A stretch of DNA of 64,000 nt from NCBI GenBank assembly GCA_032622095.1, contig CP136067.1:119461281-119525280 (forward strand), in the 5' to 3' direction. A program made the position numbers and the translations under genes. Shown piece by piece: positions 1,298-62,453 of the stretch. The number at the start of each line of letters is the position of its first letter. Within the stretch, counting starts at the first letter, position 1. Below the pieces are notes generated by a model. It saw only the letters and a program-made list of their open reading frames with translations, ran no database searches and had not been told where the DNA came from. The DNA comes from Siphonodentalium dalli. Lineage: Eukaryota; Mollusca; Scaphopoda; Gadilida; Siphonodentaliidae.

Positions 1298-4200
1298 GCT
1301 GACCTCGTGCTCTAGAAATCCAGCTGCGTGGGGTTAAATTGTAAATAGGGATGATGTGTTGACCACAATGACATGCCTGTTATGTTCGTGGGTTATGCGT
1401 GTGTGGTGTCCTGGAGCCCTAAAAACGGGCCATAATAGCGATAATGTTCGGTTTGTACATAGACGTATTGAAGTCCGTGATGACCTGTTTTTACCAAATT
1501 TCAACTGCGTGGGGTGGTTTTCCACTACCAGCGGTCACACTCTCTACACATATGCATCAACTAATGTGGAGGGATATCTCTGTAGAGTGTCCTGGTACCT
1601 CGAAATTAGGTAGAAATGCCAATTTATATGAAATCACGACGAATATGTCGGGACCCGTGCTGACCTCGTGCTCTAGAAATCCAGCTGCGTGGGGTTAAAT
1701 TGTAAATAGGGATGATGTGTTGACCACAATGACATGCCTGATATGTTCGTGGGTTATGCGTGTGTGGTGTGCTGGAGCCCTAAAAACGGGCCATAATATA
1801 GCGATAATGTTCGGTTTGTACATAGACGTATTGAAGTCCGTGATGACCTGTTTTTACCAAATTTCAACTGCGTGGGGCGGCTTTACACTACCAGCGGTCA
1901 CACTGTCTACACATATGGATCAACTAATGTGGAGGGTTATCTCTGTAGAGTGTCCTGGTACCTCGAAATTAGGTAGAAATGCCAATTTATATGAAATCAC
2001 GACGAATATGTCGGGACCCGTGCTGACCTCGTGCTCTAGAAATCCAGCTGCGTGGGTTTAAATTGTAAATAGGGATGATGTGTTGACCACAATGACATGC
2101 CTGTTATGTTCGTGGGTTATGCGTGTGTGGTGTCCTGGAGCCCTAAAAACGGGCCATAATAGCGATAATGTTCGGTTTGTACATAGACGTATTGAAGTCC
2201 GTGATGACCTGTTTTTACCAAATTTCAACTGCGTGGGGTGGTTTTCCACTACCAGCGGTCACACTCTCTACACATATGCATCAACTAATGTGGAGGGATA
2301 TCTCTGTAGAGTGTCCTGGTACCTCGAAATTAGGTAGAAATGCCAATTTATATGAAATCACGACGAATATGTCGGGACCCGTGCTGACCTCGTGCTCTAG
2401 AAATCCAGCTGCGTGGGGTTAAATTGTAAATAGGGATGATGTGTTGACCACAATGACATGCCTGTTATGTTCGTGGGTTATGCGTGTGTGGTGTCCTGGA
2501 GCCCTAAAAACGGGCCATAATAGCGATAATGTTCGGTTTGTACATAGACGTATTGAAGTCCGTGATGACCTGTTTTTACCAAATTTCAACTGCGTGGGGT
2601 GGTTTTCCACTACCAGCGGTCACACTCTCTACACATATGCATCAACTAATGTGGAGGGATATCTCTGTAGAGTGTCCTGGTACCTCGAAATTAGGTAGAA
2701 ATGCCAATTTATATGAAATCACGACGAATATGTCCGGACCCGTGCTGACCTCCTGCTCTAGAAATCCAGCTGCGTGGGGTTAAATTGTAATTAGGGCTGA
2801 TGTGTTGACCACAATGACATACCTGATATGTTCGTGGGTTATGCGTGTGTGGTGTCCTGGAGCCCTAAAAACGGGCCATAATAGCGATAATGTTCGGTTT
2901 GTACATAGACGTATTGAAGTCCGTGATGACCTGTTTTTAAAAAATTTCAACTGCTTGGGGCGGCTTTACACTACCAGCGGTCACACTGTCTACAAATATG
3001 CATCAACTAATGTGGAGGGTTATCTCTGTAGAGTGTCCTGGTACCTCGAAATTAGGTAGAAATGCCAATTTATATGAAATCACGACGAATATGTCGGGAC
3101 CCGTGCTGACCTCGTGCTCTAGAAATCCAGCTGCTTGGGGTTAAATTGTAAATAGGGATGATGTGTTGACCACAATGACATGCCTGATATGTTCGTGGGT
3201 TATGCGTGTGTGGTGTCCTGGAGCCCTAAAAACGGGCCATAATAGCGATAATGTTCGGTTTGTACATAGACGTATTGAAGTCCGTGATGACCTGTTTTTA
3301 CCAAATTTCAACTGCGTGGGGCGGCTTTACACTACCAGCGGTCACACTGTCTACACATATGAATCAACTAATGTGGAGAGTTATCTCTGTAGAGTGTCCT
3401 GGTACCTCGAAATTAGGTAGAAATGCCAATTTATATGAAATCACGACGAATATGTCGGGACCCGTGCTGACCTCGTGCTCTAGAAATCCAGCTGCGTGGG
3501 TTTAAATTGTAAATAGGGATGATGTGTTGACCTCAATGACATGCCTGTTATGTTCGTGGGTTATGCGTGTGTGGTGTCCTGGAGCCCTAAAAACGGGCCA
3601 TAATAGCGATAATGTTCGGTTTGTACATAGACGTATTGAAGTCCGTGATGACCTGTTTTTACCAAATTTCAACTGCGTGGGGTGGTTTTCCACTACCAGC
3701 GGTCACACTCTCTACAAATATGCATCAACTAATGTGGAGGGATATCTCTGTAGAGTGTCCTGGTACCTCGAAATTAAGTAGAAATGCCAATTTATATGAA
3801 ATCACGACGAATATGTCGGGACCCGTGCTGACCTCGTGCTCTAGAAATCCAGCTGCGTGGGGTAAAATTGTAAATACGGCTGATGTGTTGACCACAATGA
3901 CATGCCTGTTATGTTCGTGGGTTATGCGTGCTTGGTGTCCTGGAACCCTAAAAACGGGCCATAATAGCGATAATGTTCGGTTTGTACATAGACGTATTGA
4001 AGTACGTGATGACATACTTTTACCAAATTTCAACTGCGTGGGGTGGTTTTCCACTACCAGCGGTCACACTCTCTACAAATATGAATCAACTAATGTGGAG
4101 GGATATCTCTGTAGAGTGTCCTGGTACCTCGAAATTAGGTAGAAATGCCAATCTATATGAAATCACGACGAATATGTCGGGACCCGTGCTGACCTCGTGC

Positions 4201-4818
4201 ACTAGAAATCCAGCTGCGTGGGGTTAAATTGTAATTAGGGCTGATGTGTTGACCACAATGACATACCTGCTATATTCGTGGGTTATGCCTGTGTGATGTC
4301 CTGGAGCCCTAAAAACGGGCAATAATAGCGATCATGTTCGGTTTGTACATAGAAGTATTGAATTCCGTGATGACCTGCTTTTGCCAAATTTCAACTGCGT
4401 GGGTGGTTTTCCACTACCAGCGGTCACACTCTATACAAATATGCATCAACTAATGTGGAGGGATATCTCTGTAGAGTGTCCTGGTACCTCGAAATTAGGT
4501 AGAAATGCCAATTTATATGAAATCACGAAGAATATGTCGGGACCCGTGCTGACCTCGTGCTCTAGAAATCCAGCTGCGTGGGGATAAATTGTAATTAGGG
4601 CTGATGTGTCGACCACAATGACATACCTGTTATGTTCGTGGGTTATGCGTGTGGGGTGTCTAGGAGCCCTAAAAACGGGCCATAATAGCAATAATGTTCG
4701 GGTTTGTACATAGACGTATTGAAGTCCGTGATGACCTGTTTTTACCAAATTTCAACTGCGTGGAGCGGTTTTCCACCACCAGAGGTCACACTGTCTACAC
4801 ATATGCATCAACTAATTG
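1298..4818 (+). repeat. 361-bp satellite array, forward block
   Basis: About ten tandem monomers. The same landmark starts at 1356, 1717, 2080, 2441, 2802, 3163 and 3524, giving periods of 361-363 bp. Two monomer subtypes alternate irregularly (for example TGGTTTTCC near 1515, 2238 and 2599 versus CGGCTTTAC near 1878, 2961 and 3322). The last monomers (from ~4240) are more diverged, as expected at an array edge. The apparent 60-176 aa frames are repeat shadows. Confidence 0.96.
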
Positions 4819-7607: not shown

Positions 7608-7766
7608 TTAACCCTTTACCCAAAAGAAGGGCCATGTAACTATCACAATGTGGTCAAGGAGCCGGTTCCAATGATATCCATATGTGTATGGTTCTATTGG
7701 GACAGACCGAAGATATTTTAGGCTGTTGAAGCTTTATTTGGCCGGTTTTGTTGGGTAAAGGGTTAA
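7608..7766. mobile_element. TTAA-flanked MITE (piggyBac-like), CCCTTTACCCAA family
   Basis: Bounded by TTAA on both sides, with terminal inverted repeats CCCTTTACCCAA and TTGGGTAAAGGG. TTAA target sites plus termini beginning CCC are the hallmark of piggyBac-type elements. It is 159 bp with its target sites, so non-autonomous. The same family, enlarged by two hairpins, lies at 42656-43055. Confidence 0.85.
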
Positions 7767-10734: not shown

Positions 10735-12232
10735 CAATGGCCGGGTTACTAGGGTTAGCACAGTAAAGGCTCATATAAGTGCCTTATTTCCGCTGTGTTC
10801 ATACAATGGCCGGGTTAACACAGTAAATGCTCATACAATGGCCGGGTTAACACAGTAAAGGCTCATACAATGGCCGGGTTAACACAGTAAATGCTCATAC
10901 AATGGCCGGGTTAACACAGTAAATGCTCATACAATGGCCGGGTTAGCACAGTAAAGGCTCATACAAGTGCCTTATTTCCGCTGTGGTCCCTCGTCCAATG
11001 GCCGGGTTAACACAGTAAAGGCTCATACAATGGCCGGGTTAACACAGTAAATGCTCATACAATGGCCGGGTTAACACAGTAAATGCTCATACAATGGCCG
11101 GGTTAATACAGTAAATGCTCATACAATGGCCGGGTTAGCACAGTAAATGCTCATACAATGGCCGGGTTAACACAGTAAAGGCTCATACAATGGCCGGGTT
11201 AACACAGTAAATGCTCATACAATGGCCGGGTTAAAACAGTAAATGCTCATACAATGGCCGGGTTAGCACAGTAAATGCTCATACAATGGCCGGGTTAACA
11301 CAGTAAAGGCTCATACAATGGCCGGGTTAACACAGTAAATGCTCATACAATGGCCGGGTTAACACAGTAAAGGCTCATGCAATGGCCGGGTTAACACAGT
11401 AAAGGCTCATACAATGGCCGGGTTAACACAGTAAAGGCTCATGCAATGGCCGGGTTAACACAGTAAAGGCTCATACAATGGCCGGGTTAACACAGTAAAG
11501 GCTCATACAAGTGCCTTATTTCCGCTGTGGTCCCTCGTCGAATTGCCGGGTTAGCACAGTAAAGGTTCATACAAGTGCCTTATTTCCGCTGTGTTCATAC
11601 AATGGCCGGGTTAACACAGTAAATGCTCATACAATGGCCGGGTTAACACAGTAAAGGCTCATACAATGGCCGGGTTAACACAGTAAATGCTCATACAATG
11701 GCCGGGTTAACACAGTAAATGCTCATACAATGGCCGGGTTAGCACAGTAAATGCTCATACAAGTGCCTTATTTCCGCTGTGGTCCCTCGTCCAATGGCCG
11801 GGTTAACACAGTAAATGCTCATACAATGGCCTGGTTAACACAGTAAATGCTCATACAATGGCCGGGTTAACACAGTAAATGCTCATACAATGGCCGGGTT
11901 AGCACAGTAAATGCTCATACAATGGCCGGGTTAACACAGTAAAGGCTCATACAATGGCCGGGTTAACACAGTAAATGCTCATACAATGGCCGGGTTAAAA
12001 CAGTAAATGCTCATACAATGGCCGGGTTAGCACAGTAAATGCTCATACAATGGCCGGGTTAACACAGTAAAGGCTCATACAATGGCCGGGTTAACACAGT
12101 AAATGCTCATACAATGGCCGGGTTAACACAGTAAAGGCTCATGCAATGGCCGGGTTAACACAGTAAAGGCTCATACAATGGCCGGGTTAACACAGTAAAG
12201 GCTCATACAAGTGCCTTATTTCCGATGTGGTC
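10735..12232 (+). repeat. 32-bp minisatellite with higher-order structure
   Basis: More than forty tandem copies of a 32-bp unit of the form CCGGGTTAACACAGTAAA(T/G)GCTCATACAATGG. A different 32-bp variant (GTGCCTTATTTCCGCTGTGG) interrupts it near 10780, 10975, 11510, 11575, 11765 and 12212. Blocks repeat at larger scale: the rare GGTTAAAACAGTAAATGC variant occurs near 11229 and again near 11993. Confidence 0.95.
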
Positions 12233-16749: not shown

Positions 16750-17029
16750 GCGGAGTCCTACAATCAGTTTTTTGTGGTACAACTTGACCATACACACCGA
16801 TACACCGTGTATTTATTTCTTAATTAACTTAAAAAAAAAAAATATATTTATTATATATTTTTCTATTTATTTATTTATTATTTTTTTTTAAATTGAGCAA
16901 GGAATTTGTTTTGTTAAAGAGTGAATATTTTTTCGAAAATAGACAAATGTACATAACACAAATAATTGGAATTGATGGGTCACTCGCATTTATATAAGAG
17001 AATGCAGTACATAACACAATATTTTGCAG

Positions 17030-17422: not shown

Positions 17423-17694
17423 TTAACACTTCCATGACTGGATCTTCCTAAAAAAAATTATGAAAACCTGCGCCAATGCATTCTCTTATATATCCGAATC
17501 TCCCATAGGGAGCCTCACATATAAGAGAAAACATTGGCCTAACAATATTTATCTTGACCTTGTAAGCCAGTGGATTCTCTTATATATATGAGGTTCCCTA
17601 TGGGAGACTCACATATATAGGAAGAATGCACTGGCACATGATCTTTAATGCTGCACCAGCATAGCTCCCATCATGAAAGTCTTGAAAGAGTTAA
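17423..17694. mobile_element. TTAA-flanked element carrying two CCAATGCATT hairpins
   Basis: TTAA at 17423-17426 and 17691-17694; the ends (CACTTCCATGACTGG and CCATCATGAAAGTCTTGAAAG) are diverged inverted repeats. Inside are two imperfect hairpins (17473-17537 and 17567-17634) of the CCAATGCATTCTCTTATATA type also found in other TTAA families at 41.6, 42.8, 43.0 and 46.7 kb. It lies in ADAM17 intron 4, 42 bp from exon 4. Confidence 0.65.
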
Positions 17695-17824: not shown

Positions 17825-20800
17825 CTGCAATTGTAACAATTATCACAAATGAATCAACAATTATATATAGTATATATATTATATACCAAAAAAAAAAAAC
17901 TAACACATAAAACCAATCTATTCATGTGTAGGAAGGATTACAGTAAAAGATGCAACATAGATACTTCAACAACAATCTGTCCAAAGGTTAAATTTCCATT
18001 TTGTCAGAAAACCAGAAGCTGAGTGAACATGAAGAACAATGTGGAAAGGCATGCGAGAAAAAGGGGGGTTGGGGGGGGGGGGGGGGGGGGGGGGGGTTGA
18101 CTTGTGACATTGCCACCTTCTATATAGTGTACACAGCGAAGGTGGTATATCCCATATGTAGTATGGTTATTCTTTAGCAAGGGAAGCCAAACTGTCTTAG
18201 TAAAGCATAGGTCGGTATGAATTGTTGAAATGAATTGATTGTTAAGTATGATAACTTCAGGTGAATTGTCACGATCAGCAATCAGATATGTCTTCTGAGA
18301 AAACAAATGATTGCTGATCATGACAATTTACCTGAAGTTATCATACTTAACAAACAATTCACTTACTAGTACAACAATTCATACCGACCTACGCTTTATT
18401 AAGACAGCCAGGCTTCCCTTGCTAAACTATAATCTTGTAATTAATCACCCCAACTACTTAGTATATGGCTACATACATAACACCCACATCATCCTCCAGT
18501 GATGTATGGCTCACCTCAGAAACAGAAGTCGAACAATCCGACAAAGGTGAACCCAACACAAATACTGGAGTTTAGGAACGCCAAAAAAAGACGACTAACC
18601 GTTTCCGCCCATATACATGATAAACTTCCACATGTGAAGGTCAATATCCCTCACAGAAATTAGGCTACCTTTATACAAAGTCACCATAAATAAAGGAGAA
18701 TACAACATTTGTGACCTCTCATACAAGTCTAACATAGAGACACATATATCGAGACCAACACTCAACACAGAATATAACTGGATGTTCCTACTAAGGACAT
18801 TATATCCAGAGGGCACAAACATGTCGTGAAGACACTTTATGGTGAATAATATTAATCTCCCCTATGTAGTAATTACGTTAATTAAAAATTGGAGGTTATT
18901 TGCGGGATCAAAAGCAATATTCAATAGAAGAATTTAATTTCAACCACATTTCAAAGTCGGTCAGTTAGTCGATCTACATGTACTTATGTCTACAAAAACT
19001 ACATTTATATCCCAACACATGTACTTGTTTACAGAAAATTCTGAAAATCCTTTATGATATATAGAGGCCCGAAAAACCTGGGAACTTCTCATAGGAGTAA
19101 CAGCAAACTTTATAAACAAAACAAGCCTATGAGACATTTTTGACCAATCAGAGGTTGAATTGATTGCACTATTAAAGTGACATTGTGAACACAATTATTC
19201 CACCTGATTGCTATTGATTTCAATATGACATTTGCAGTTTTGACACTTCAACCCAAGCGCTTTGGGTTTGAGAATGTGAACCAAAATTATTCCGATATGC
19301 ATGGGGTGGAGTTAAGAACTGTCAAACTTTAGTTCAAAGGTGTGACATTACCCACTTTTATTTCACCGAGAAATCCTTATAAATCACCTATAAAGTAATG
19401 CCCTAATTAATCGACTCCATAACCACAGCAGAATTATGGGTAATTTTTCAGGATTTAGTCGGAAATATGGCTTGTTGCCAACAAGCCATATTTCCGACTA
19501 AATCCTGAAACATTACCCATAATTCTGCTGTGGTTATGGAGTCGATTATTTAGAGCATTACTGTAGGTGTGCAATAAAAGATAATAATTTACCTGCTAAG
19601 GTTCCTTGGAAGAAATCCTGTTTATCTACAAAGAATGGTGACTCGCTGCCATCTGCTTTCTCGACCATCACCTTAAAGTCCTCAGACAGACCATCCGTTT
19701 GAGGCTTCAGGAACATACGGAAATCCCTAGAGTAACAGAAATGTCAATAACAGGCCTCAAAATATGCTGCCAGAGGTTTGCAGAATGAGGTCCCAAGAGA
19801 GTGAATTTAGTGACACCTGCACATCGGGCTAGCATCACCAACTCAACAACTGGGGACCTCATTCTGCATGGTCTCATCTGCTATGGGAGACCTAGACTCA
19901 GATTTATGTTCCTAGATGGTGAAGATGTGAACCCATTGGGAACCTTGATTATGCACTGTGACATCTGCCAATTTGGGAGATATAGAGAAACTAAAAAAAA
20001 GAAAAGTTCTTTGAGATCAGCTACCTGTATATGAAATGTTGGCCTGGTGTGTAATAAACACAGAAAGTTCTTCATTCAGTAATGCCCTAAATAACCGAGA
20101 GCTTTCCGATAAATGGCAACAAGCATTATTTCAGATTAAATCCTGAAAAGTTACCCATAATTCTGCTGTTGTTAAGGAGTCGATTATTTAGGACATTACT
20201 GTATGTGTTATTTATCAGATAAACATCCTTTGTTGAGGTGGTTGTTCGGTGACTCATGCATGAAAACAGTCAACTTGCTGCTGTTTTCACAAACTGTTTT
20301 CATACAAGAATATCCTATGAAACAGGGTATGTTTATCTCCAGTATAATTCATTTAACAAAAACATTTTTAAAAACTGCACGAAAAGTACTTTTTATTGGC
20401 ATTATATGCCATACTCAGAACAGCACCAGAACAACTTTATGTTAGTTGATGACACCTTTATCTATAAAGTAAACAACTTGTGGTTGCGTGCAATTATGAG
20501 ACTCCTGTTTGATACTGTGACATATTTTACTCATGGTGTCAATAACAAGGCGCTAGCCTATATTAGTCATGAGTTCTCGACCAATAAAAATGCATGTTTT
20601 AGAAACAAATATTGATTTAACTTGAAATAAAATGGCTGACAGCACTTGTAGCATTCATGAGATCATGGAAAAATAACACTTGAGGCTATATAGATATCTT
20701 TCATGCTATCCTTGAAATATTGAACTAATGTCAGAACCAGTATTAACAGACATATTCCATATTCTGTGTACCTACCTCCCGAATCCAGAGAATGTAACCT

Positions 20801-23800: not shown

Positions 23801-26800
23801 GTGTTTTAATATTTTATGCCAAAACTGAAGTCTGTCACGTACGTTACTAGTACATGCAAAAACACAAACTATTGGTGTCATTCATTGTTTCTGTGATTTC
23901 TGACAACTATATGTCATTTCCAATCAACTACTAGTGACTCAGGCTCACTTTCTTTTGTTTTCAAGAATTAATTTATCTGCAGAGCCTCAAATTGTTTTGC
24001 AGTAACTCTCAATCTGTTGTCACGTACGTTACATTGAATTGTCACGTATGTTACATCTTCAAGTCATGGACAATGTTTTCATGAAAATAGCTTTATAATG
24101 CAGACATTTATTTGTAAAATTATTTTATTACCACATTTATGTTAAATTGTAACACAAAAAATGATTATCCGGAGAATGACAAATCCAAATTCTTTCAAAT
24201 GGTATAAAAGTAAATAGACACTCTTTTTAATTTAAGAGTGTCTATTTTCTTTTATACCATATGTAAATTAATGTAAGTATAATAAAATGAATCATGTCTG
24301 GGGTAAGGGAAGTTGTGTGGATAGAAACACACTCCTTCGGCCCCACTGCCTTAGGGCAATATAGCTATATATGTACATATTAAGTGTTTCTATGCATTGC
24401 ATGTAAACTATAGTTTGGATATCATAAGAAATCTTAAGATGAAAATTTTCAACCGATTTTTTGTGAATATCTTGCTGAAAACATAAATTTTCTAAATCCT
24501 AAGCCAATGGTATTGCATATTTGGGTGAAGTATATATTTCTTTTTCTATGTTCATCTAAAAATAATATCAGTAATAAATCTACCACGGGCCGTATTACAG
24601 ATAATATGCTAAGTTATAACAGTGCCGTATGTAATCTTAGAAATCACACCAATAAAATAATTCCCATATTCACTAAAATTGTGCAGATATCGTATATTTA
24701 TTCATTCCTTAACCCTTTCACGACATGAGCTGCGCTGGTGAACAAATTCAACCACATACAACAATGTTATTGATTCCACCACAATATGAGCCTTTAAACA
24801 TATAAATAATGGACAACTAATGTCAGAATAGAGCTCTTTGATTTTCACTGCCTATTATTTAGGCCACTGTTCTAATAAATAGCACTGGAAATAACAAAGT
24901 CATAGAATTGAAGGGTTAATTTGACATGCATGATCTATATGAAGTTGCTACACTTTCTGCTGAAATATTGCTACATTGTGTATGTGTTATGCTGTAGTAC
25001 AGCTGTACTGTATGAAATATAAATTGGGAGAAATGCTAACCAACTATTAGGTAGTTTCTGGAACTCTGGGTAACTGAACAGTAAGAAGTAACTGGCCTCT
25101 GCATTTCAATAATTTGACAATAAATGATAAAACATGTTTGTTTCACCATGTCTGGAACAATTTATTTCAAGAGATTGCACAAATCACCTATAACCACTAG
25201 AACTAATGTATATTAGCCAATCTGCTGGTAAACAATGGAGATGTAGATATCAAATCATGTAGCTTAAGTGCTTCTGTTAGTAGAAGCATCATAGTATAGA
25301 ACAGAAGGGGCAATTGATGTTTAGTTGCAATAAATTAAAATGTAACGTACGTGACGTCACGTGCGTTACATAACTTATAGAGTATTTAAGTGTTTTTACC
25401 TTCCACAAGCACACTTTTGATAAACCGTCATCATTTTCCAATCCATTTACTTCATACAATAATGCAACTGTTATATTCCTTTACATAGTTTTCGTGTAAT
25501 AAGAATACTAAACAGTTAATTTTTGTCACGTATGTTACAGTTAAACTCATAAGGTGTATTGTGTCATATCAAGAAATTGATGCACTGTTCTTGGAAGTAG
25601 TATGTTTGATTATAGTTTTGACTACTCAAACAATATAAAATGAGATAAAACTATGGCCTGGTGTATATTAGCAACTATTTTTTCATAATACTAATTTAGA
25701 ATTAGATTTTCACAAGTATTTGAGACTTTTTGTCCCCTGTGTCACACATGCATAACAAGAAATATTCTGGCAAACTGGAATAAAATTTAAATTTTTCAAA
25801 CAAATCAGAGTCTTCACAAACAAATAAAAAAAAATCACAATCTTAGGACAAATTCAAATTTTTATCCTTCTGGTTTACATTTTTTGAGAATCACCCTAAA
25901 TAGTAAATACTAACTAAATAGACATTGTTTCTGTACTACATGTAGTATATTATGTATGTGTCTCACTTGAATTTTATAAAATAGCCTATTATATGAATTA
26001 GAGTGATAATGGTATTACCATTATCACTCTAATTCATATAATAGGCTATTTTATAAAATTCAAAGTCTCATTCAAGCAGGATAAGCATAATCCATTGAAC
26101 CAAAAGATATCTGACAATAAGTTATAAGCATTTCCAATCCATACATATATAAACATTTCCAAAGTTATGCTTGAGAAACTTTATCAAATTGACCTCTCAG
26201 TAAAATTCAAAATACTGACTCAAAGTGCCCTAGATTAGCTCTAAATGCAATGGATTTTCAAAAAATTTCCAGGGGGAGAACCCCCACCATCAGCAGGGGG
26301 TCACCTCTCCCAAACCTTCCTCCGCTCAGGCCTTCAGGTTATGCCTTTGGCATATCATCGCCTAGAAACAGGTGTCCCCAAAAAATACCTAGATCGATCC
26401 TTCACTGAATGCGGAGGAGAAGGTGGGGTTGTGAAGCCATCATTAAGAGATCGGTACAAGACGGTCACTCCAATATGTGACAGTGCAGTGGTGCTGGACT
26501 GACTCCAGTTGTCGCCAGACCATATGGGAAATATTAGGATTATCAAAGACTATATTAGTATATAGACTAGTATATATGTAAATATTGAAGCATATATGTA
26601 AGATTGAATTGGAGTTTTTAGTTCCTCTGTCATTTGGGTTAACCTGATTGGGGCTAAGAAGTGCATAGTTTGGGTTATTGACAGGGTTATTATACAGTTA
26701 TTTTTAAAGATACTGAAAAAAAAAAGTTGAAAAAAAAATAAAAGTTAAGCCTGCATGTACCTCCTACCCTAATTTTTTTCAGCTCGTTAGCGGAAACAAA

Positions 26801-29360: not shown

Positions 29361-29808
29361 TTAAAGGTACTCAATCTGATCAGACGCTCCTAACTTACTA
29401 TTTCTTTGGCTTCAGGGTAAAAAATATTTGATTCGAGTCGAGGAACCCAACCAACAAAGCTCAGAGTGATCAGATATAGATTTTTGAAGTTTGTTATTTC
29501 TCAAGATGTGTAATACACGTGGTCAAACGGAAGGTCTCGGACAAAATTGCGGATGAAGATGGATAACTCTAAAATCAAGTGGTAATACGGCCAAATTATG
29601 TGATACTTAAGTGATAATACGTCCAAATTTTGTTGAACAAAATGTTGATAAATAACAAGTTTTGGGAAATTTGATACCATAGTTGATTGGTTAGCATTAT
29701 TTCGTTGCAATAAATTGATTCTGATAACTAAAGCATATTTTGAAGAAATATTGTTTTTGTTGTATCTTGATGATATGGGGACCGTCTGATCAGATTGAGT
29801 ACCATTAA
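29361..29808. mobile_element. TTAA-flanked MITE, AGGTACTCAATC family, copy 1
   Basis: Begins TTAAAGGTACTCAATCTGAT and ends CAGATTGAGTACCATTAA; the interior is partly palindromic (GACTCGAATC/GATTCGAGTC words, GATATAGATTTTTGAAGTTT). Full-length relatives at 31861, 39935, 48040 and 61977 share the TTAA boundaries. Confidence 0.8.
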
Positions 29809-31860: not shown

Positions 31861-32276
31861 TTAAAGGTACTCAATCCGATCAGACCCTCATAAATTACTA
31901 TTTCTTTGGCTTCGGGGGTAAAAAATATTTGATTCGAGTCGAGGAATCTACCCATCAACGCTCAGAGTGATCAGATATAAAAAAAAATTATTTCTATTGT
32001 TTGTGGCCCAGAAACACTCTGTCAAAAGGATGGTCTCGGTCAAAATTGCGCTATTATTACCACTTGATTTTAGAGTTATCCATCTTCGTCCGTTTGAATA
32101 AGTGTTTCTGGGGCAATTATTAGTACACATCTCGAGAAATAACAAACTTCAAAAATCAATATCTGATCACTCTGAGCATTGATGGGTGGGTTCCTCGACT
32201 CGAATCAAATATTTTTTACCCCTGAAGCCAAATAAATAGTAATTTAGGGGTGCTTAATCAGATTGAGTACCTTTAA
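31861..32276. mobile_element. TTAA-flanked MITE, AGGTACTCAATC family, copy 2
   Basis: TTAAAGGTACTCAATCCGAT at left and ATCAGATTGAGTACCTTTAA at right. The two halves are mostly reverse complements (GATTCGAGTCGAGGAA versus TTCCTCGACTCGAATC), making a long hairpin. Confidence 0.88.
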
Positions 32277-32788
32277 TTAGTGTCATCAAAATTAAATTAA
32301 GTATTATATTTGTTGTTTTTTTGTTGTGTTTCTGGGAACAAAACAGGCTGATATCCATTCTTCATATGAACTGACAGACTATAAAGTAATTGATATAAAT
32401 ATATTCACTGTTTTCAACTTTCCAAACTACACTGGGAATATACCATAATAGGGAACAAAATGTTCGAAAAATTATTGCAGCAAAAATGGGTTGATGGTCA
32501 TATAGTGATAACCACCTTATGGCTTATTCTCACTTATCCGGCAGGGATGTGTGAATGCATCTGAGCCGGCAGGTTATAGTCTGTTTTTACAATGTGTGAC
32601 TAGTGATCGCATCGCGGCAAGCAGTGTTTGTTTAAGCAAAGTGTAGCCCAAACTTACCGGCAATGACTGTATATCACGATATGAACTCTTGTCACTGAAA
32701 ACAACTCAAGTGAGTGATTTCCAGAGATCATCATGTTCTCACGCTAACATATAAATTACAGAGGTTCACAAAGACAGATCATATCAAA

Positions 32789-33095
32789 ATGGCAAACACT
32801 CAAGTACACATCTATTTCATTCCTAATGCTCGCGGTGGTAAATATCTCATCTTTAACAATTATAAGTTCTGTGTTAAGTCTAGAAGAAACGACAGTGTAC
32901 ATTGGCGATGCTGCTCGAAGACATGCAGTGCTACTGTAAATACCAAGAACGACATCGTGACATCATACAAAAGCCAGCATAACCACGAATCAGACCAGGC
33001 CCAAGTTGCTGCTGAAACCATCATCGCTGAGCTCAAAAACTTAGTTCGACAGACATCCAGACCAGTCACTGCTATCTACCAGGAAGAAATATCTA
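32789..33095 (+). CDS. FLYWCH zinc-finger exon of MULE transposase (exon 1)
   Basis: The ATG at 32789 is preferred over the in-frame ATG at 32714 because the domain begins right after it and the extension looks non-coding. The FLYWCH pattern is visible: YLIFNNYKFCVKSRRNDSVH, then WRCCSKTCSA and a terminal SQHNHE, giving the C2H2 zinc ligands (Cys-Cys then HNH). FLYWCH domains bind DNA and are often fused to MULE transposases. The exon ends at donor A|GTATGT (phase 1); the intron is 255 bp. Confidence 0.82.
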
Positions 33096-33350
33096 GTATG
33101 TATATCTTTGGAAATAATAACAATATAGTCTAGTATTAACAATACAATATAGTCTAGTGTTAACAATAAACTATAGTCTAGTCTAATTTTATTCTTATCT
33201 ATCATATTATAATTGATAACGCTCTTTATTATATTTCAACAATCATGAAACAAGGAATACATTAAAAACCAAAACAATTCTTATATATCATAATTGATAG
33301 CGCTTTTTATTATATACCGATATATTATATGATTATTTCCCTTTTTGCAG

Positions 33351-34391
33351 ATTTGCGGACAGACGAGACACATTCTGACATCATCGCAAAGGTTCCGACG
33401 TTCTATTCAGTGAAAGCGTCACTCTACACGAGAACGAAATGCCATTCAGCTACCAGAACGGTATACAAAGACGACAATGGACAGAGAATTTCTACTCATC
33501 GATGATGGTACGACTGACAGACTACTCATCTTCAGCACCGACGAGAATCTGCAGCACTTGTCGAACGCCCAGATGTTCTTCTGCGATGGAACATTCGACA
33601 AATGGCCGAAGACATTCCAACAGCTATATTCCATACATGCGTTTATCGACGGCCAGATGCACCCCCTCGTCTACGGCCTACTACCAGACAAGAAGCAATC
33701 GACTTATGAGAGATTTTTTCGACTCCTCAGCCTGAAAGCAGAAGAATTTTCAACACCACTAACACCAAATTACTGCTATACGGACTTCGAAATCGGAGCA
33801 CAGAATGCCATCAGAACAGTATTTCCTGGTGTGATAATGCGAGGATGCTATTTCCACTACAGCCAGGCAATATATAAGTATGCAACAACAACGGCCAAAC
33901 TTCCGTACGAAGGTGAAACGAAGAAGCTGATTCGAAGGGCAACTGCTTTACCATTCCTGCCGGTAGGTGATATCAGCGATGCCTGGTTCGAAGTACTTGA
34001 AGAGGCACCAGCAGGTAACGACATCGAGAAATTCACGGACTATGTCACATCGTACTGGGTGGAAGGCGACCACGGTAGACAGACATGGAATCACTTCGAC
34101 AATGACGGTCCAAGAACAACAAACCATGTCGAAGGCTGGCATAAGAAACTGCAAAATTATCTGCCGGGGGGCAAGCCGAACCTGTTCAACTTCATTGATT
34201 TCATTAAAAAAGAACAGGCGTATCATGAGTCGACAATACTACAAGTGAGCAATGGTGGTCGCGTCAGACCACAGCAGAGAAAATACAGGAGCGTCAACAA
34301 CAGCCTTCGGCATTACAAGAGAGTCTATAGAGAAGGGCAGTTGGGGATGTTAGATTATTTAGATTCATGTGGAAATTTTTCTGGCTTTTGA
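33351..34391 (+). pseudogene. MULE transposase exon 2 with a +1 frameshift
   Basis: Acceptor CCCTTTTTGCAG precedes 33351. The exon-1 frame continues as IIAKVPTFYSVKASLYTRTK, the expected start of this family, then stops. The homologous frame resumes from about 33477 as REFLLIDDGTTDRLLIFSTD, so a +1 shift near 33470-33485 is needed. It then shows FFCDGTFDKWPKTFQQLYSI (first Asp), CYTDFEIGAQNAI (second Asp), RGCYFHYSQAIYK (CxxH-type segment) and NHVEGWHKKL, through to a natural stop at 34391. Almost intact, so a recently dead copy or an assembly indel. Function if intact: cut-and-paste transposition. Confidence 0.85.
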
Positions 34392-38757: not shown

Positions 38758-38936
38758 CAAGCCTTGAAATAGGGTGTCTGTCATTTGCAGAATGAGGTCC
38801 CCAGAGGGTGAATTTAGTGATGCTACCCCGCATAGCGGGCTAGCATCACCAAATTCACCCTCTGGGAACCTCATTCTGCTGAGGTGTAAGCAGAATGAGG
38901 TCCCCAGAGGGTGAATTTAGTGATGCTAGCCCACTA
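38758..38936. mobile_element. GCAGAATGAGGTCC foldback cluster
   Basis: Flank AAGCCTTGAAATAGGGTGTC, then a full palindrome (38787-38878) and a further half unit (38890-38936) in direct orientation. Same family as 39285-39540. Confidence 0.75.
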
Positions 38937-39284
38937 AATCATATTTAGACATTTTTAGACTAAAATATTTGAACTCAGTATGCGATTGTTGACAAATCAC
39001 TGTAACAGTTTTGTTTACATAACAATGGTTTCAACATGTGAAATTTCATTATTGGAGAGTTATCAATGTTTAACATAAGAACAAAGTTGATCTATTTCTC
39101 CATGTTTTTCTCGGTGGGGAACTTTTTACAGATTTGTTGCACATTTTACCAACTGTGAGTGCCATGGGTCCTTTTTAAATAACACAGACTCCAATGTTTC
39201 TGCCATATGGGAATGGAGAAGGATGTATCATGGGACAAATATTCAAATAACATGTAAACTGAGACAAGTGAAATGACTCAAGGA

Positions 39285-39540
39285 TCCAAGCCTTGAAATA
39301 GTGTGTCTGTCATTTGCAGAATGAGGTCCCCAGAGGGTGAATTTAGTGACGCTACCCCGCATAGTGGGCTAGCATCACTAAATTCACCCTCTGGGGACCT
39401 CATTCTGCTTACAACTCAGCAGAATGAGGTTCCCCGAGGGTGAATTTGGTGATGCTAACCCGCTATGCGGGGTAGCATCACTAAATTCACCCTCTGGGAC
39501 CTCATTCTGCAAATGACAGGCACACTATTTCAAGGCTTGC
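39285..39540. mobile_element. double foldback element in the 3' flank of the docking-complex gene
   Basis: Outer arms CCAAGCCTTGAAATAGTGTG and CACTATTTCAAGGCTTGC enclose two back-to-back GCAGAATGAGGT palindromes (39314-39408 and 39419-39510). It ends 40 bp from the ODAD1/CCDC63 stop codon, so it would be transcribed as part of the 3' UTR. Confidence 0.82.
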
Positions 39541-39775: not shown

Positions 39776-42700
39776 CTGCAAAGAAAAACAGAAAGATGTC
39801 TTAGAAAATGAGAAACAGAAATCTCAACATATATTTTTCCAAGGATTTGTTATGATTTCAGAATTAACAAAATGTAGTCACACATCTCAAAGGAGACTAT
39901 AAAACACATGAGAATAATATATATAATTGAATGTTTAAAGACAGTCCCCTTATCATCAAGTTAACAACAACATTTCTTCAAAATATGCTCTTGTCATCAG
40001 AATCGATTAATTACAACAAAATAATGCTAACTGCTGTCAACTATAAAATTTCCCAATATTATTTACCAACATGTTGTTCAATGAAATTTGGCCATATTAT
40101 CACTTGCGTATCACAAAATTTAGCCAAATTACCACTTGATTTTAGAGTTATCGATCTTCATCTGCAATTTTGTCCGAGACCATCGGTTTGACGACTCTTT
40201 ACACATTTCGAGAAATATCAAATTTCAAAAATTGATATCTGATCACTGTGAGCAAACACCGAGCATTGATGGGTGGATTCCTCGACTCGATTCAAATATT
40301 TCACCCCCGAAGCCAAAGAAATAGTCATTTGGGAGTGTTAATTTGGATTATGCATCTTTAATACATTCAACGTTGGTTATTGATTCAAAAATGTCCAATC
40401 AATTATTAGAAGCTTGTAAAAGGAATTAAAGCAACATAACAAGAGTTTTGAAAGAATATCTCATTTAACATAGTTTAGTTATTCAGTATCTATTAACACT
40501 TTCTATACTAAATACTCATTGGTGAGTAGTTCACCTCGTAAATTATCAGATAATACATTGTAAGTTAAACGAAATGCCCATAGGTCATTTGTTGAACTTT
40601 TTAATATCTGAAGATTTTCCACTAAAGAAAATGGATTTTAATCCTTATGCACTTGTATCAACTTTTCATCTCTCATCAAATGCATACTTTTATAACTGAA
40701 TGGGGGAATCCATAATAAATAAAACAATTACCGCTATGTGGCTATAGGTCAAAATACAGAAAAACAAATTTAAATTTTCAGATACTTCAAAACATGAAAC
40801 ATATTTCTCTGAATTATGCAGCGGTATTGTGTTTTCATCACTGCTCTATGAAGGTAATGTTCATAAAAAGTACAAATGACTATGAAAATAAATATGAACA
40901 TGGGCCTTAAATTAATGACAAATAAAAACATTGCAATTTAGACTTTCACACATGTTTGTTTTCATTCATTCTGTATTTTCCAATAATGTCTACTTATATA
41001 TCCCTTCAAAATGCACATATTCATAAAGTCTTGAGGGAAAAATGAAATATTCATCATGCCCCAAAGACTAAATATGCTTAATGCGAAAGTTATTCATAAA
41101 CAGGAGGGCTATAATATACCAATTGACATGGCTAACTAAAACTGTTGAGAGTTGATAAGATCAGCACATTGTCTTTGACATACATTTGGAAATAAGATGC
41201 TTTAAGAATACTTACCCAACAGTAGGTGCAGGAATTGGGAACTGTGGTTGTGGGCCAGTTGGACCTTCACCTAGGAGACCTGGCGTCTTTGGATCATATT
41301 TCTCATAGTCCTGTAAAAAATAATTCATCTCATGAAGATATGAAGTATTGCATGCATATTATTGCATGTAGCCACAGCTGGCCAATGTCTTGTTATATGG
41401 TGTGATTGTTTGATAGGATCATCATTTGCTATCCTCGGGTGTTAACCCTTTGAGTGCCAGGGGCCGATCTCATCGGCCCTAAACCTACAAAATAAGTCTG
41501 TTAAAGAATATAAGAATAAATTATTAAAATTGTAAAAAATTGTGAAAAACAAAAAACAAAAACAAAACAATTGTTAGGCCAATGCATTCTCTTATATATG
41601 CGAGGCGACCTATGGTCGACTCGCATATATAAGAGAATGCATTGGCACAGGGTATATGGGTTGATACAAAAATCGACCTGGCACTCAAAGGGTTAAATTG
41701 GGATTTAGATTAACAGTTTGAATTGCCCAGTCAATGTTGCTGTTGGATCATGTTTCATGAAAATTGTTCAATGGCAAAATTAAATGGTCGCTTTCGGTAT
41801 TTTGATATCTGGAATAGTTACATAGACCTTATAGAAAGTCAATGAAAGTGACCCTGCATTCTAATCACAACTGCTCGCCCAAAAACGCGACATGATTACA
41901 CACTGGCAATGTCTTGTCATTGCAAACGAATATCTGAATTAAAATTGCTTGTGTATATCTCCTGGATACAAATGTGTATAATACACAAGCTTCGTACATC
42001 TTGCAACTGGCAGGAGTTTACTTTGATCATTTAATAATAGTCAGGGGCGCCGGAAGCATCCAAGGGCAGGGGGGGCAGAGCCTACAAAAAGGGCACTTTT
42101 CTGCAAAAAAGGGCATTTTCTCCGCAAACTCGGGAAAATAACCATAAATTCATTGTGGCAAAATCCCTATTTTAATGGTTTTTATGGCCGTTTTGTGATA
42201 AAATTGACAAAAAATTAATATTCCTTGTGAAATTGGTGGTATTTGGACCAAAAAAGTCACATTTTGCTATAAAAACACGAGATTAAACACACAAAAAGCA
42301 TTTTCTGTCTCCAGAAAAAGGGCAAGTCCTGCCCCCGCTCGCCCCCCTTGGTCAAGGGCAGGGGGTCAGCGGCCCCCTCTGCCCCCCTCTTCCGGCGCCC
42401 CTGATAATAGTTAGACGAATGTGGTTATCATACTGATATGGATGTCAACAGAAACATTTATCGGACATAAGGACATGCAAGTTTTTATATACATTGGGCA
42501 TCAGTATCATATTAAAATGTAAAAATAGAAATTTCTGCATTCTGGCATGATTCTCTCACTATTATTAATATATTGGAGATGTTGGATAATGGTATCATCT
42601 TTGTCACTTTGGTATCATGGGAAATAGTATTTTATATTGAAGCTGGATCATGTCTTTAACCCTTTACCCAACAAACCGGCCAAAACCGGCCAAATAAAGC

Positions 42701-45700
42701 TGCAACAGCCTAAATTATCTTGGGTCTGTCTCAATAAAACCATACAAATATGGATATCATTGGAACCGACTCATTTACCACATTGTGATGGTTACAGTTA
42801 CGCCCTGTGCCAATGCATTCTCTTATATATGCGAGTCGACCATAGGTCGCCTCGCATATATAAGAGAATGCATTGGCCTAAAAAAAATCTTTTTTTAACA
42901 CTTTTTACCATTTTTTCTTACATTCTTTAACAATTTTATAATTTTTAATGTGTTAAGCCAATGCATTCTCTTATATATGCGAGGCGACCTATGGTCGACT
43001 CGCATATATAAGAGAATGCATTGGCACAGGGCCCTTCTGTTGGGTAAAGGGTTAAACAAAGATGAAATGAAGTGATAAACATGTACCTACCTTACTGCTG
43101 ATGTATGTTTGTATGGCAAGAAGTTCATTCGTTCTCTGTTCAATGATACCCAGATATTGTATCATGTTGCCATCGGTAACACCAGATGCTGCTCCTAGCA
43201 TCTCATCTATTGCTGATCGATCACAGTTTATCTTGTTGAAGAGTGAGTCCACACCTTTAAAGATGCATGATTGAAATTAATAAAAATTATGGCAATATTT
43301 GTAACATATTTAATGGTGATAATCGTGTTAAACAAGATGACTACAGTAAGTGGGGTGATCAGAATGGAAGATGATGTAATAATACATGTCTGTGATTCAG
43401 TTAATATTAACCAACATAATAAAAAAATATATATATTCAGAAGCAACTTTATTTTTCAAATTTTCAGGCATATCCTATTAATCAAGATATGGCAATATAC
43501 TTGTTCATATTGTCCGGACAGACTTAAAATTCACTGTTCACTTAAGAATATCAATGTTTTTTTGTAGAAAATATTTAGTTTTTTTTTTACTGGTATTGGA
43601 AATTGAGCACATTCATGCGTGATTCATAGTTTGATGGTTAATCTGTGCCAAGTAATGTACCCATCCCTTCAATGAGTTTTGATCTCGTCGAATAATATCA
43701 TCTCTAAATGAATTCTGTATAGTACAGTACCTGCTCTGAGCTGATCGAGTATTTTGTTGATTTCTTTGTGTTTCGATTCATAATCATCACCGTCTTTGGT
43801 CGCTACGTTCTGTCGATCCTCTAACTGTCTCATTATAACCTTCCTCTCTGCTTCCATATCTGTACTCTGTTCCTTGAAGTTCGCAATCTCTTCCTTTATC
43901 TGCACATTAGAAAGGGAGAGAGAGTCAACAACTATAAATTTGAATGTTAATGCTGTCCTAAGATGCACTTTATATGAACATTAGATAGGGAGAGAAAGTC
44001 AGCAACTATAAATTTGAATGTCAATGCTGTCCTAAAAATCTCTGATGAAGATGCACTTTACCCTTTTCTTCACTAAATACTCATTGATGATTGATGAGTA
44101 GTTCCCTTAGGAAATGTTCAGATAATAAGTTCAACAAATGGCCATGAACAGGAATCCTTCTGTACTTATATTACCTTTATATTACCTTTTCGTCAGTTTA
44201 TTTTTCCTGAACACGGCTCGAAATGAATAATGGACCATTTCGATATAATAAATACATATATAACTAGGTGGGAGAGTCCATTAACCCTGTCTATACTAAA
44301 TACTCATTGATGAGTAGTTATCACATAGGAAATATTCAGTTAATAACTTCAACAAACAAGGTTGTTTCTTGACCTTATTATCTGAACATTTTCCATCAAT
44401 AAATATGAATCATTCTACACTTGTGTTATCTTTTTATCGGTATGGCATCTGCTTTTATTACCTGAACACCCCTCAAAATCAATAATAGACCTTTCCAATG
44501 TATACTTTTATTACTGAATGAGAGAATCCATTTAGTATAGAAAGGTATTAACTCACACTAGGCATTCTGTTAGTTAAGACTCTTGGTCATATTGTTGTAC
44601 TCTATACTGATTACATTGCCAGGTTGAGTCCTGCTCAAAAGTGAAGGACCTATATAGGGCATAGCAACGGTTTATATGTGGGAGTTTTATACAATGTTCT
44701 TCCATGTGATCAAAAAGCAGCATGGCATAGACTGGTATAGAACATAACTTTTATGTAGGACCAAATCACCTACAGATTGTTATCAAAGTGATATTCAAGA
44801 TTGTGATAAGATCAATTAAAATCAATCTTCCAGATTGAAATATCAGCATGTAATATTTTTATATCTTATTGCATCATGATAAATCTCTATCTGTTCTGTC
44901 ATTGTCTCTCTTGCAATCTATAATTTATAATAATAAAAAACCCCCACAGAAACATGAAACTGTTCATCCTGAGTGAACTTCATCTGCTGAGTAACATAAC
45001 TGTTTATGGTTGTTCTATTTCTGAAGTGATGCCATATATACTCACATTATAAATCTGTTCCTGTAACAATTCAATCTCATTGTTCTGTTCATTAACATAG
45101 TTGAATAGAGCGAAGTTCTTATCCTCAACTTCAATGAAGGTATTGACTAACAGGTCGAGATCATCTTCTCCAGTTATATCCTTAATCTTCTCAAATGCAG
45201 ACTCGTAAGTGTCAATAGAATCCTCCTGGCTCTCCTTGCGTTTTTCTGCTTCAATAGCTGAGAAAATAAAAAATAGAATGGCTTATTCAATGCTATAATA
45301 GCCGTACGGGCGCCAAAATTTTTAGGGGGGGGGGGGGGGGGGTTGAGACTTTTTGCCCAAAATTTTTAACATGATATATTCATGGTTGTAGAACAGTTTT
45401 TGTAAAATATACCTTACATATACATAAAAATATAAGAAAATGGATTCAAATTAACCTTAAATATGTACATGTGGGCAGAATGTGAAAAATATTGTAATTT
45501 GCCATAATTTCCCCCTGAAATAACAGTCAATTTGCACGAAAATGGCCTGAATTTGACCGAAAATATCTCCAATTTGCCCAATAAATGAGCCATCACGACC
45601 ACTCAGAGTTGAATGTATAGACCAGAAATTTTAACTTATAAAGGTTCCTCAATCTACACAAGAGCCAAAACGAGCTCAACATCAAGTATGTCAAATCTAC

Positions 45701-48700
45701 GGCACGTGCATTCGGTTGGTATCGCTTTCCGTGTTCGGAGGTAAAACTTAATGTATTCGTTCACTTTTGGACTATAAAAGCCGTCCGATGTTCGGAATAG
45801 AGAGCTTCCGGTTTACAGAGGTAATTTTTAGTGAGAATGCACTTAGGTGAATTCGGGACCGGATAATTTGTTGGGTATGGAGAGGGATTCGGTTTATAGA
45901 GGGCCCGGTTTGGAGAGGTTTTACTGTATTAAATATTCATTGATGACATTGATCCCTTAGATAATGTTCAGATAATAAGTTCAACAATGTTTGTTTAACT
46001 TATTATCTGAACATTTCCCTTCAATAAATAGGACTCATTCTGAACTTTTATTATCTGTTGTCGGCTTATTTTTCCAAAACATCCCTCCAGATGAATAATA
46101 GACCCATTCCAATGTATACATTAATAACTGGATGGGAGAAACCATTTAGAATAGAATGTTTTAACATACCTTTCCTCTGCCTCCAGGCGACCAGCTGTGG
46201 ATCCTCATGTCTCTCTTGACCCTTTATTCCCATGAAGTCTTTAAGCTTTCTGTCGTGGTCGATGACCCTGATGAGTTCCTTCATCTCAGCATTGTGTTGT
46301 TGTTGGTCCTTGTCGGCCTTCTCTTTCAACATGATCATCTTCGCCTGAGCTTCGTCTCTGAAATGAATTGAAAAAAATCAAATTGCATTCTCTGTTGCAA
46401 TGGAGTAAATGTATGGTTGATACACTACAGTTGAGTACTAGGCTAGGAAATATATCATTCAATCTGCTTGCAGAGAACTGTGATTTCAAAGAAAGAACCC
46501 AATGTAGTGTATTTAACCCTTTCAGTGCCAGGGGCCGATCTCATCGACCCTAATTTACGGTCTGTAAAATCGGCCCTAAAAAAATAAAAAACATTTTTTT
46601 CGATTGTTTAGATTTTTTTTAAATTATTAAAATTGTAAAAAATTGTAAAAAATAATAACAAATGATGAAAAATTGTTAGGCCAATGCATTCTCTTATATA
46701 TGCGAGGCGACCTATGGTCGACTCGCATATATAAGAGAATGCATTGGTGCAGGGTATATGGGTTGATACAAAAATCGGACCTGGCACTCAAAGGGTTAAG
46801 GGGGAGGTCAAGGGACCAATTTTGAATGGGAATTTCCATGCAAATCTGTGGAGCAAAAGTTAGAGAGTTGCACATACTTCGGAGTGTGACTTGATGTGGT
46901 ATTGGAAACAACAGGCATTTATTTGATGGGTCTGCTTGGATCTTGTTCCATTATAATGTTGGTGTATTTATTTATGAATTTTATATAAGTTTTTCAAAGG
47001 TAGTCATTATTGCAAAACTTTACAATGTTTTATAATGTTTATAGTTAAATATTATGACTGTTCAATGATATTTCTGCTTTGGTTTCTGAACAACTGCTTC
47101 ATACATTTATAACTTTTGCTCCAGAAATTTGCATGGAAATCCCAATTCAAAATTATTAATTTGACATCCCCCTTAACCCGCTGAGAGCATCCTACATGAG
47201 AGATGATTGACAGTGATGTGAAGTATATCAACCAGAATCTTACAAATAACAGTTTTCAAATATCGTTGTCAATCATGTCCCCAGGCGATGGGGGTCGACT
47301 TCTCCTGTCAACTTCTGAAAACCCCTAATCGTTTCAACACTAGGCTGGAAAATTCCATTTAGTATATAGAAAGCGTTAAGTTGCAGTTGATATACAAACC
47401 TTGAATCATAAGCTTGTGTTGAATTTTCAATCAGTTCTCCCTTCTCTTTACGAAGCCTTGTCAATTCCTTTTCAAGTTTTTTATAAAGCTGGTCAAATCT
47501 GTTTCTCTTGATACGTAGTCCTTCTATCTCATCCCTGAGCTGAGCATTCTCTGTCAGAATGTTGTTGAACTGCTTCTTTGACTACAAAATCCCCAAATTG
47601 AGAGCAGATTAATAAAACGGTTAAGAACCATCATTGCTGACAGAAACAGGTTTAAAATTCATAAAATCTTCCAGAAGATTGTCGACGTGCAGCGATTGAG
47701 CTCCTGTAAACACAACAAATCCTTATCTCGTTCCATAACCCCACCTGATGCCCCCAATGCCCTTTTCTATTACTCACTCAATCTACCCTTTCCTACTTAC
47801 CGGTTCCCTATTTATACAACCAAACACCCCCAACCAACCCTTACCCACCATCTACATTTGCTGTCAGTTGTCATACTATTTCTGTATATATATTTATATA
47901 TATACCCCTTTGCAATAAAACGATCAATATAAAATTAGTGTGATCAGCTTAAAGGTCCATCCCATATCGTCAAAATGTAGGGACATCATATAAATCTTCA
48001 AAAATTGAGCTATCTGCTGACTATAAAATTAGTATGCTTTTAAAGGTACTCAATCCGAATCAATGCTCGCAAATTAATATTTGAATCGAGTCAAGGAACC
48101 CACCCATCAAAGCTCAGAGTGATCACATATCGAAGTTTGATATCTATTATTTGAATTTGAGGTGGCCCAGTAAACAGTCAATGAGAAGACCAAATTGCAG
48201 ATGAAGATGGATAACTCTAAAATCAAGTGGCTTTTTTGTGTCAGATACTTGACAAACCGGCAAAATTTCGTTGAACAAAAAGTAACATATTTTTGTCAAT
48301 TTTATGCTATAGTTGAATGTGGCTAGCATTATATTTGGGCAATTAATCAATTCTGACAACGGAAGCAGAATTTCAAAAATGTTGTTGCTGTTGGAATCTG
48401 ATGATATGGGACAAATCGGATTGAGTACCTTTAACATTAATGAGAGATGTGAATGTGATATTTATTCAACTGGTCAAAAGTTTAAGTTTTTTCATTATTT
48501 CAAAACATCATCATAGAAAGTTACCTACAAGTGAAAGTCTCGAGTGACATTTCGAGCCCTGTTTGCAGACAGTACTCACATTATCAAGCCTGTCCTCAAG
48601 TGTTCTGATTGTTTTCTTTGTTTGTACGGTGTGGTGTCCAGCCTGGTGACAGCCACCCATGTTACGTCTCTGCTGACGGATCTTCTTCTCTGATTCTTTT

Positions 48701-61976: not shown

Positions 61977-62453
61977 TTAAAGGTACTCAACCCGATAAAA
62001 CTCCTCTCAATTACTATTTCAATGGCTTCCGGGGTCAAAAATATTTGATTCGAGTCGAGGAAGTCACCCATCAAAGCTCAGATTTGTTAGATATTGATTT
62101 TAGAAATCTATTATTTTTCATTATCGGGAATACTATCTGGCCCAGAACTCAGTCAAAATTGCGTTAAAATTACCACTTGATTTTAGAGTTATTCATCCTT
62201 GTCTGTTTGAATAGATTTGGAGTACACATCCAGAGCAGATTACGGCAGTTATTAGTACTCATCTCGAGTGCATAACAAATTTCAAAAATCAATATCTAAT
62301 AACTCTGAGCTTTGTTTGATGGGTTCCCCGACTCGAATCAAATATTTTTTACCCCCAAAGCCAAAGAAATAGTAATATAGGACCCTCTTATCGGATTGTT
62401 GTTGTTGGAATCTGTTGAGATGGGGACCCTCTTTACGGATTGAGTACCTTTAA
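61977..62453. mobile_element. TTAA MITE, AGGTACTCAATC family, copy 5
   Basis: TTAAAGGTACTCAACCCGAT to ATTGAGTACCTTTAA with palindromic halves (GATTCGAGTCGAGGAA / CCCGACTCGAATCAAA). Inserted 15 bp after the putative exon donor at 61962. Confidence 0.85.

Follow-up and report, generated by a model that had tools for sequence, protein, structure and literature searches.

A long hairpin shared by TTAA-bounded miniature elements with different termini in the scaphopod Siphonodentalium dalli

In a 64,000-nucleotide stretch of the Siphonodentalium dalli genome (contig CP136067.1, forward-strand positions 119,461,281 to 119,525,280; the whole stretch is called the window here), six copies of a long hairpin are distributed over four short TTAA-bounded elements (A to D) with three kinds of termini, and a fifth such element (E) has none. 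Judged by their sequences, the five elements are nonautonomous miniature inverted-repeat transposable elements (MITEs) of the piggyBac (TTAA) type. We lean, if not strongly, toward regarding them as two-part MITEs, in which family-specific termini are combined with a shared cassette that has been exchanged between TTAA families with its base pairing kept. The sample comprised this one window, with five elements and hairpins of three distinct sequences.

The canonical hairpin is 67 bp long and has 32-nt arms (31 of 32 positions paired, with a lone G·A mismatch at pair 27) and a TAT loop; as RNA, it is predicted to fold at -50.9 kcal/mol. The four copies in A, B (B1 and B2), and D turned out to be identical at 67/67 bases once B1, at 42810, was turned over, while the two in C (C1 and C2) are diverged. 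An earlier note on this DNA had placed hairpins with 32-nt arms and a 3-nt loop at 41579, 42810, 42958, and 46681 and diverged ones near 17473 and 17567, and had taken the arm mismatch as a marker of direction, by which the copies at 42.8/43.0 kb form an inverted pair; all of this was borne out, the diverged copies being C1 at 17473-17537 and C2 at 17567-17634. When up to three mismatches are allowed, the 20-mer CCAATGCATTCTCTTATATA occurs 12 times in the window versus 0.02 expected. A local-alignment scan of the window for the hairpin, in which N-containing stretches were skipped and five shuffled windows served as the background (top score, 31), returned the six full copies, one half arm, and nothing else scoring at least 34. 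No complete hairpin was found in it outside a TTAA element. The segment at 40527-40560 scored 33, too weak against the shuffled maximum for it to be counted as a relative. Around the half arm no TTAA element was recognized; the 45-bp stretch that contains it (16962-17006) lies between 13-bp direct repeats, GTACATAACACAA, at 16949-16961 and 17007-17019.

The elements carrying this hairpin differ in their ends. All five have TTAA on both sides, and every element end starts with TTAAC. The terminal inverted repeats (TIRs) start with CCCTTT at both ends in A, B, D, and E, fitting the motif CC[C/T]T, and the ends of C (CACTT and CTCTT) are degenerate, with no strict fit to it. TTAACCCTTT is common to A, B, D, and E, but past it the TIRs differ. 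As the earlier note had claimed, the hairpin hosts thus have different termini: TTAACCCTTTGAGTGCCAGG in A and D (the left end of D being one base off), TTAACCCTTTACCCAA in B and in the hairpin-less E, and TTAACACTTCCATGACTGG versus TTAACTCTTTCAAGACTTT, with 14/19 positions matching, at the two ends of C. The absence of a hairpin from the member at 7608, also claimed there, was upheld by the local-alignment scan of the window. The ends and most of the right part are common to A and D, and the ends and interior are common to B and E. The distance from hairpin to nearest element end is 51 bp in A, 154 bp for B1, 31 bp for B2, 52 bp in D, 50 bp for C1, and 60 bp for C2. The segment at 24709-24919 (TTAACCCTTT...GAAGGGTTAA) was considered as an extra family member and not counted, since it has no hairpin and its ends part after TTAACCCTT.

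The likeness between the elements extends past the hairpin itself. The inner flank is TTAGG in A, D, B1, and C1 and TAAG in B2 and C2, and the outer flank is CACAGGG in A, B1, and B2, TGCAGGG in D, CGCAGGT in C1, and CACATGA in C2; in all six full hairpins the outer flank points to the nearest TTAA end. Both B and C have the order hairpin-linker-hairpin, with the two hairpins inverted and the inner flanks agreeing by position (TTAGG in B1 and C1, TAAG in B2 and C2), while A and D have a single hairpin. That agreement, which turns on one letter, is suggestive, but only suggestive, of a two-hairpin order older than the split of B and C. The linker of A aligned with the reverse complement of that of B at 38/48 positions, ungapped, with a score of 28, which none of 500 shuffles reached (mean, 13.7; maximum, 26); the score for the D and B linkers was 25, equaled by 1 of 500. 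The six full copies are without abutting direct repeats, edges shifted by up to three bases giving only copy-specific matches of 2 to 3 bp, and no TTAA was found at the cassette edges. Since the flanks are of the same kind and orientation in 6/6 copies, the A/D and B linkers are similar, and abutting repeats are missing, the shared unit is probably larger than the hairpin and consists of two inverted hairpins plus the linker. Of the earlier proposal that the hairpin is a module moving among piggyBac-like MITEs, the sharing across families is real, but a bare hairpin moving by itself was not supported: the window has no complete copy outside a TTAA element, none with an edge repeat, and none differing in kind of flank or in orientation. 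Nor was the hairpin found there alone or with a target duplication of its own. The copies do not fit a self-mobile hairpin element, for which a target duplication of its own (found in 0/6) and varied flanks (alike in 6/6) were looked for. We rejected a cassette that is itself a TTAA element nested in others, its edges having neither TTAA nor an abutting duplication.

Element E shows what a member of the B family looks like with the cassette missing. In its alignment with B, 122/132 bases match on the left, where there are also 10 gap positions, and 27/29 match on the right; where B has GTTACA, the cassette, and ACAGGGCCC, E has GTTACATGGCCC. The ACATGG of E matches the cassette edge ACAGGG of B at 5/6 bases, with a 3-bp ACA microhomology, and the same edge is present in A and, in diverged form, in C and D. 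Since the edge retained in E also stands in those elements, E is easier to understand as B minus the cassette than as a preinsertion state; judged by this junction, it looks like a deletion derivative in which the cassette was lost across the 3-bp ACA repeat. The difference between E and B may also have come from insertion with a 3-bp duplication or from recombination at CACAGGG.

How one hairpin came to lie between different ends could be explained by simple common descent, in which an ancestral hairpin-bearing TTAA family changed its termini, hairpin-less copies are deletions, and nothing was exchanged. The earlier note had named such an ancestral superfamily, with hairpin-less members as simple deletions, as what would refute its own view. 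The deletion half of this agrees with E, which keeps ACATGG, and the half concerning one ancestral superfamily, with five elements to judge by, may or may not be right. The inverted pairs with matching inner flanks in B and C also speak for descent, as do the TTAAC that starts all ends and the TTAACCCTTT common to A, B, D, and E. Against it, the A/D and B hairpins are identical at 67/67 bases, yet their linkers match over 79% (38/48) of the best stretch and the outer parts compared do not match; at the linker rate, the probability of an unchanged 67-mer is about 1e-7, a rough hand-calculated figure given the low complexity of the linker. The termini, which the transposase recognizes, would have changed almost fully past TTAACCCTTT with the hairpin unchanged, and the hairpins of C show that its sequence can change. 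As far as these sequences go, sharing across families with different ends needs either exchange or constraint, and since simple descent would require near-complete change of the termini beside an unaltered hairpin, we take exchange to be the best explanation and regard descent without it as possible, though doubtful.

An insertion would also place a hairpin within unrelated ends. Made1, a short, near-perfect palindromic MITE which folds into one hairpin, is a complete element flanked by a TA target duplication of its own. The hairpin described here resembles it in being a near-perfect palindrome of similar size that forms one hairpin but, unlike Made1, sits inside other elements and has no target duplication of its own. 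A Made1-like transposon inserted into other MITEs, be it the hairpin alone or the CCCTGTG-ended cassette of two hairpins, would account for the presence of the cassette in B and its absence from E, with the 3-bp ACA repeat at the edges; the ends CCCTGTG and CACAGGG are, moreover, inverted repeats that fit the CC[C/T]T motif for piggyBac ends, as given in PMC2872659. We nevertheless hold it unlikely: the six hairpins lack abutting direct repeats (shifted edges offering just the 2- to 3-bp matches), the cassette edges lack TTAA, and the empty E possesses, in ACATGG, a counterpart of the edge CACAGGG.

The diverged hairpins of C bear on whether the pairing was kept. At paired columns, C2 departs from the canonical hairpin by 12 substitutions, eight of which make up four double changes (pairs 4-64, 23-45, 29-39, and 30-38) that restore Watson-Crick pairing, versus 0.40 expected; four were reached in 1 of 20,000 simulations (P of about 5e-5). 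C1, with nine substitutions in all, has two compensatory pairs (P = 0.014). Broken pairs numbered two in C2 versus 7.8 expected and two in C1 versus 6.0 expected, and the G·A mismatch and TAT loop are unaltered in all six hairpins. In the simulation, changes fell at random positions with a transition share of 0.5 on the MAFFT rows of the hairpins; pairs touching the 2-base gap of C1 were set aside, and the one-base insertion of C2 was ignored. Given the excess of double changes in C2 and the retained mismatch, what has been maintained in these sequences is the base pairing of the hairpin and not its sequence alone. The compensatory changes lend indirect support to the earlier view of the hairpin as a required structural part; its acquisition by recombination, the other part of that view, is something that we infer. 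Arm-to-arm correction, that is, template switching across the palindrome, could by itself, with no function involved, have kept the copies homogeneous and produced the paired changes, and the adjacent pairs 29-39 and 30-38 changed as a single switched patch would. This is very unlikely to be the whole explanation, however, as the G·A mismatch, at a distance of just two positions, persists in the canonical hairpin, C1, and C2, and pairs 4-64 and 23-45 of C2 changed separately. The least probable account is that the hairpin was kept as a source of small RNA (hairpin small interfering RNA or a microRNA precursor), which its predicted RNA fold, compensatory changes, and conserved mismatch and loop would suit, but the window has no Rfam match at gathering thresholds, and selection for a benefit to the host is not generally expected to act on single MITE copies.

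Several observations weigh against an exchanged cassette whose pairing was kept. The whole argument is carried by only the five elements named above and their three different hairpin sequences. The similarity of the A and B linkers is modest and lies within AT-rich, low-complexity sequence, and the 29-nt linker of C scores weakly or not above chance (29, 10, and 155 of 500 shuffles reaching the scores with A, D, and B), its likeness to A and D being little beyond the common ATTGTTAGG. Five between-family comparisons of the outer flanks, in which that of D was compared with A only, revealed nothing beyond CACAGGG; 120, 5, 489, 410, and 455 of 500 shuffles reached the scores, the count of 5 reflecting the CACAGGG match itself. 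Inside the A/D family, the hairpin (67/67) is no more conserved than the right end (49/51 plus one gap), the left part matching at 114/127 with 51 gap positions. Pairs 29-39 and 30-38 are common to C1 and C2, so the two are not independent and the counts overstate the number of events. Lastly, no piggyBac-type transposase was matched by Pfam among the 58 frames scanned of the 87 in the window with at least 80 amino acids.

With these points taken into account, the origin of the two-part elements by exchange may be pictured as follows. The short termini, differing by family, would decide which transposase moves an element. The ancestral cassette most likely had the form CCCTGTG-hairpin-CCTAA-AT-rich linker-TTAAG-hairpin-CACAGGG, which B would still show and C would show in diverged form; in A and D, a single hairpin with some of the linker would remain, and from E the cassette would have been deleted. 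Between TTAA families, it could have passed by recombination or template switching and not by transposition of its own, the direction and the repair mechanism being what we infer. One such route would be template switching during the repair of an excision gap, a process that is established as a source of internally altered elements and that the long palindrome would favor. The pairing would have been kept as the cassette spread, and the likeliest reason, by analogy with piggyBac and piggyBat, might be that dyad-symmetric DNA inside the termini aids mobilization. It is a tentative and rather improbable extension of this that the cassette is an interchangeable mobilization part selected for its structure, one which TTAA MITEs with unrelated termini repeatedly gain by recombination, paired DNA or RNA and not the letters being advantageous. 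Exchange of this kind would offer a possible route to new MITE families, in which existing internal parts are joined to new ends.

Table 1. Positions in the window of the elements, hairpins, and related features
Feature	Position	Strand	Description
Element A	41442-41696	+	TTAA MITE, 255 bp including both TTAA; TIR TTAACCCTTTGAGTGCCAGG; one hairpin near right end
Element B	42656-43055	+	TTAA MITE, 400 bp; TIR TTAACCCTTTACCCAACA (TTAACCCTTTACCCAA); two inverted hairpins
Element C	17423-17694	+	TTAA MITE, 272 bp; degenerate TIRs; two inverted hairpins
Element D	46513-46799	+	TTAA MITE, A family, 287 bp; TIR TTAACCCTTTGAGTGCCAGG; one hairpin
Element E	7608-7766	-	B-family member without hairpin; ends TTAACCCTTTACCCAA; junction GTTACATGGCCC
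Hairpin A	41579-41645	+	Flanks TTGTTAGG / CACAGGG
Hairpin B1	42810-42876	-	Turned, 67/67 with hairpin A; flanks TTTTTAGG / CACAGGG
Hairpin B2	42958-43024	+	Same sequence as hairpin A; flanks GTTAAG / CACAGGG
Hairpin D	46681-46747	+	Same sequence as hairpin A; flanks TTGTTAGG / TGCAGGG
Hairpin C1	17473-17537	-	Diverged; flanks TTGTTAGG / CGCAGGT
Hairpin C2	17567-17634	+	Diverged; flanks TTGTAAG / CACATGA
Linker B1-B2	42877-42957	-	AT rich; reverse complement aligns with A linker
Half arm	16978-17006	+	Single arm; score 42 versus at most 31 in five shuffled windows
Further long hairpins	9897, 19449, 24200, 25986, 38804, 38855, 39333, 39384, 39436, 45962, 52912		From the long-hairpin scan

Long hairpins in general are not rare in the window, as revealed by a scan for arms of at least 25 bp with up to two mismatches and a loop of up to 10 (Table 1). 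Neighboring ones based on GAGGGTGAATTTAGTGATGCTA and CACCCTCTGGGGACCTCATTCTGCT are clustered at 38804-39494, and the palindromes at 19449-19507 and 25986-26044 have arms that are perfect over at least 25 bp. A second kind of TTAA-bounded element, of 395 to 477 bp and with ends (A/T)AAGGTACTCAA(T/C)C or near, is present at 29361-29808, 31861-32276, 48040-48434, and 61977-62453. Between elements A and B, at 42034-42411, lies a hAT-like element with inverted ends CAGGGGCGCCGGAAG and an 8-bp flanking duplication, ATAATAGT.

Elements A, B, and D adjoin minus-strand frames (43669-43980, 45004-45282, and 46066-46377) that match the ODAD1 coiled coil, and against solved structures the frame at 45004-45282 matches ODAD1/CCDC114 chains. 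The Pfam scan of the 58 frames gave ODAD1_CC in four, MULE, FLYWCH, and five weak single matches (E values of 0.0003 to 0.008); the 29 frames left out of it comprise 19 in the satellite at 1-4816, two with Ns, and eight others mostly overlapping scanned frames. The MULE transposase and FLYWCH zinc finger frames are adjacent, at 32714-34391, and possibly form one MULE transposon gene. The satellite consists of units of about 361 bp in tandem, with a switch of orientation at about 1297, and a further array, of a 32-bp unit in about 44 copies, occupies 10799-12210.

Relatives were also sought outside the window. Exact patterns of 18 to 21 bases from the hairpin (two) and two termini (two) had no match in viral contigs, and hairpin patterns of 24 and 19 bases had none in GTDB genomes, as is expected for animal DNA. 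Of the terminus and hairpin strings, one short string was encountered in the literature, in two unrelated papers. The hairpin cassette was not found described in the literature searched, a coverage outside which Repbase and most subscription journals fall.

Among known systems, piggyBac and piggyBat offer a parallel for the position of the hairpin. As described in PMC11707139, they have palindromic subterminal sites that are bound by paired transposase C-terminal domains. The likeness consists in palindromes inside the termini, which in piggyBac are asymmetrically placed; those palindromes are short, 19 bp for piggyBac and about 14 bp, with imperfect symmetry, for piggyBat, compared with 67 bp here, where the palindrome is known from sequence. 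According to the same source, activity is restrained by some of the subterminal sequence of piggyBat, so the hairpin might act in a way other than helping.

In architecture, the closest precedent is the CMITEs of Acropora corals (PMC2872659), several families of TTAA MITEs whose TIRs differ but which have in common an internal region that is highly conserved and of unknown origin. The elements described here are of the same kind in their TTAA duplications, piggyBac-like ends (mostly CCCTTT), and small size, and also in that the internal region is better conserved than the TIRs: the hairpin is the same at 67/67 bases in A/D and B while the TIRs differ past TTAACCCTTT. Homology of the cassette to the CMITE core was rejected: in 10 comparisons of A to E, on both strands, with the 60-bp core consensus published there, the local alignment scores were no better than those of shuffles, the best being reached by 16 of 300. 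Unlike the hairpin, that core folds weakly (-11.0 kcal/mol); CMITEs are about 100 bp long, and the text available to us describes no long hairpin or paired inverted hairpins for them. What is added relative to CMITEs is a different sequence, a long hairpin, an inverted pair, and paired changes. The puzzle that CMITEs pose, namely, why internal regions stay conserved under different ends, thereby becomes testable as the question of whether a paired structure within the termini makes a difference to transposition.

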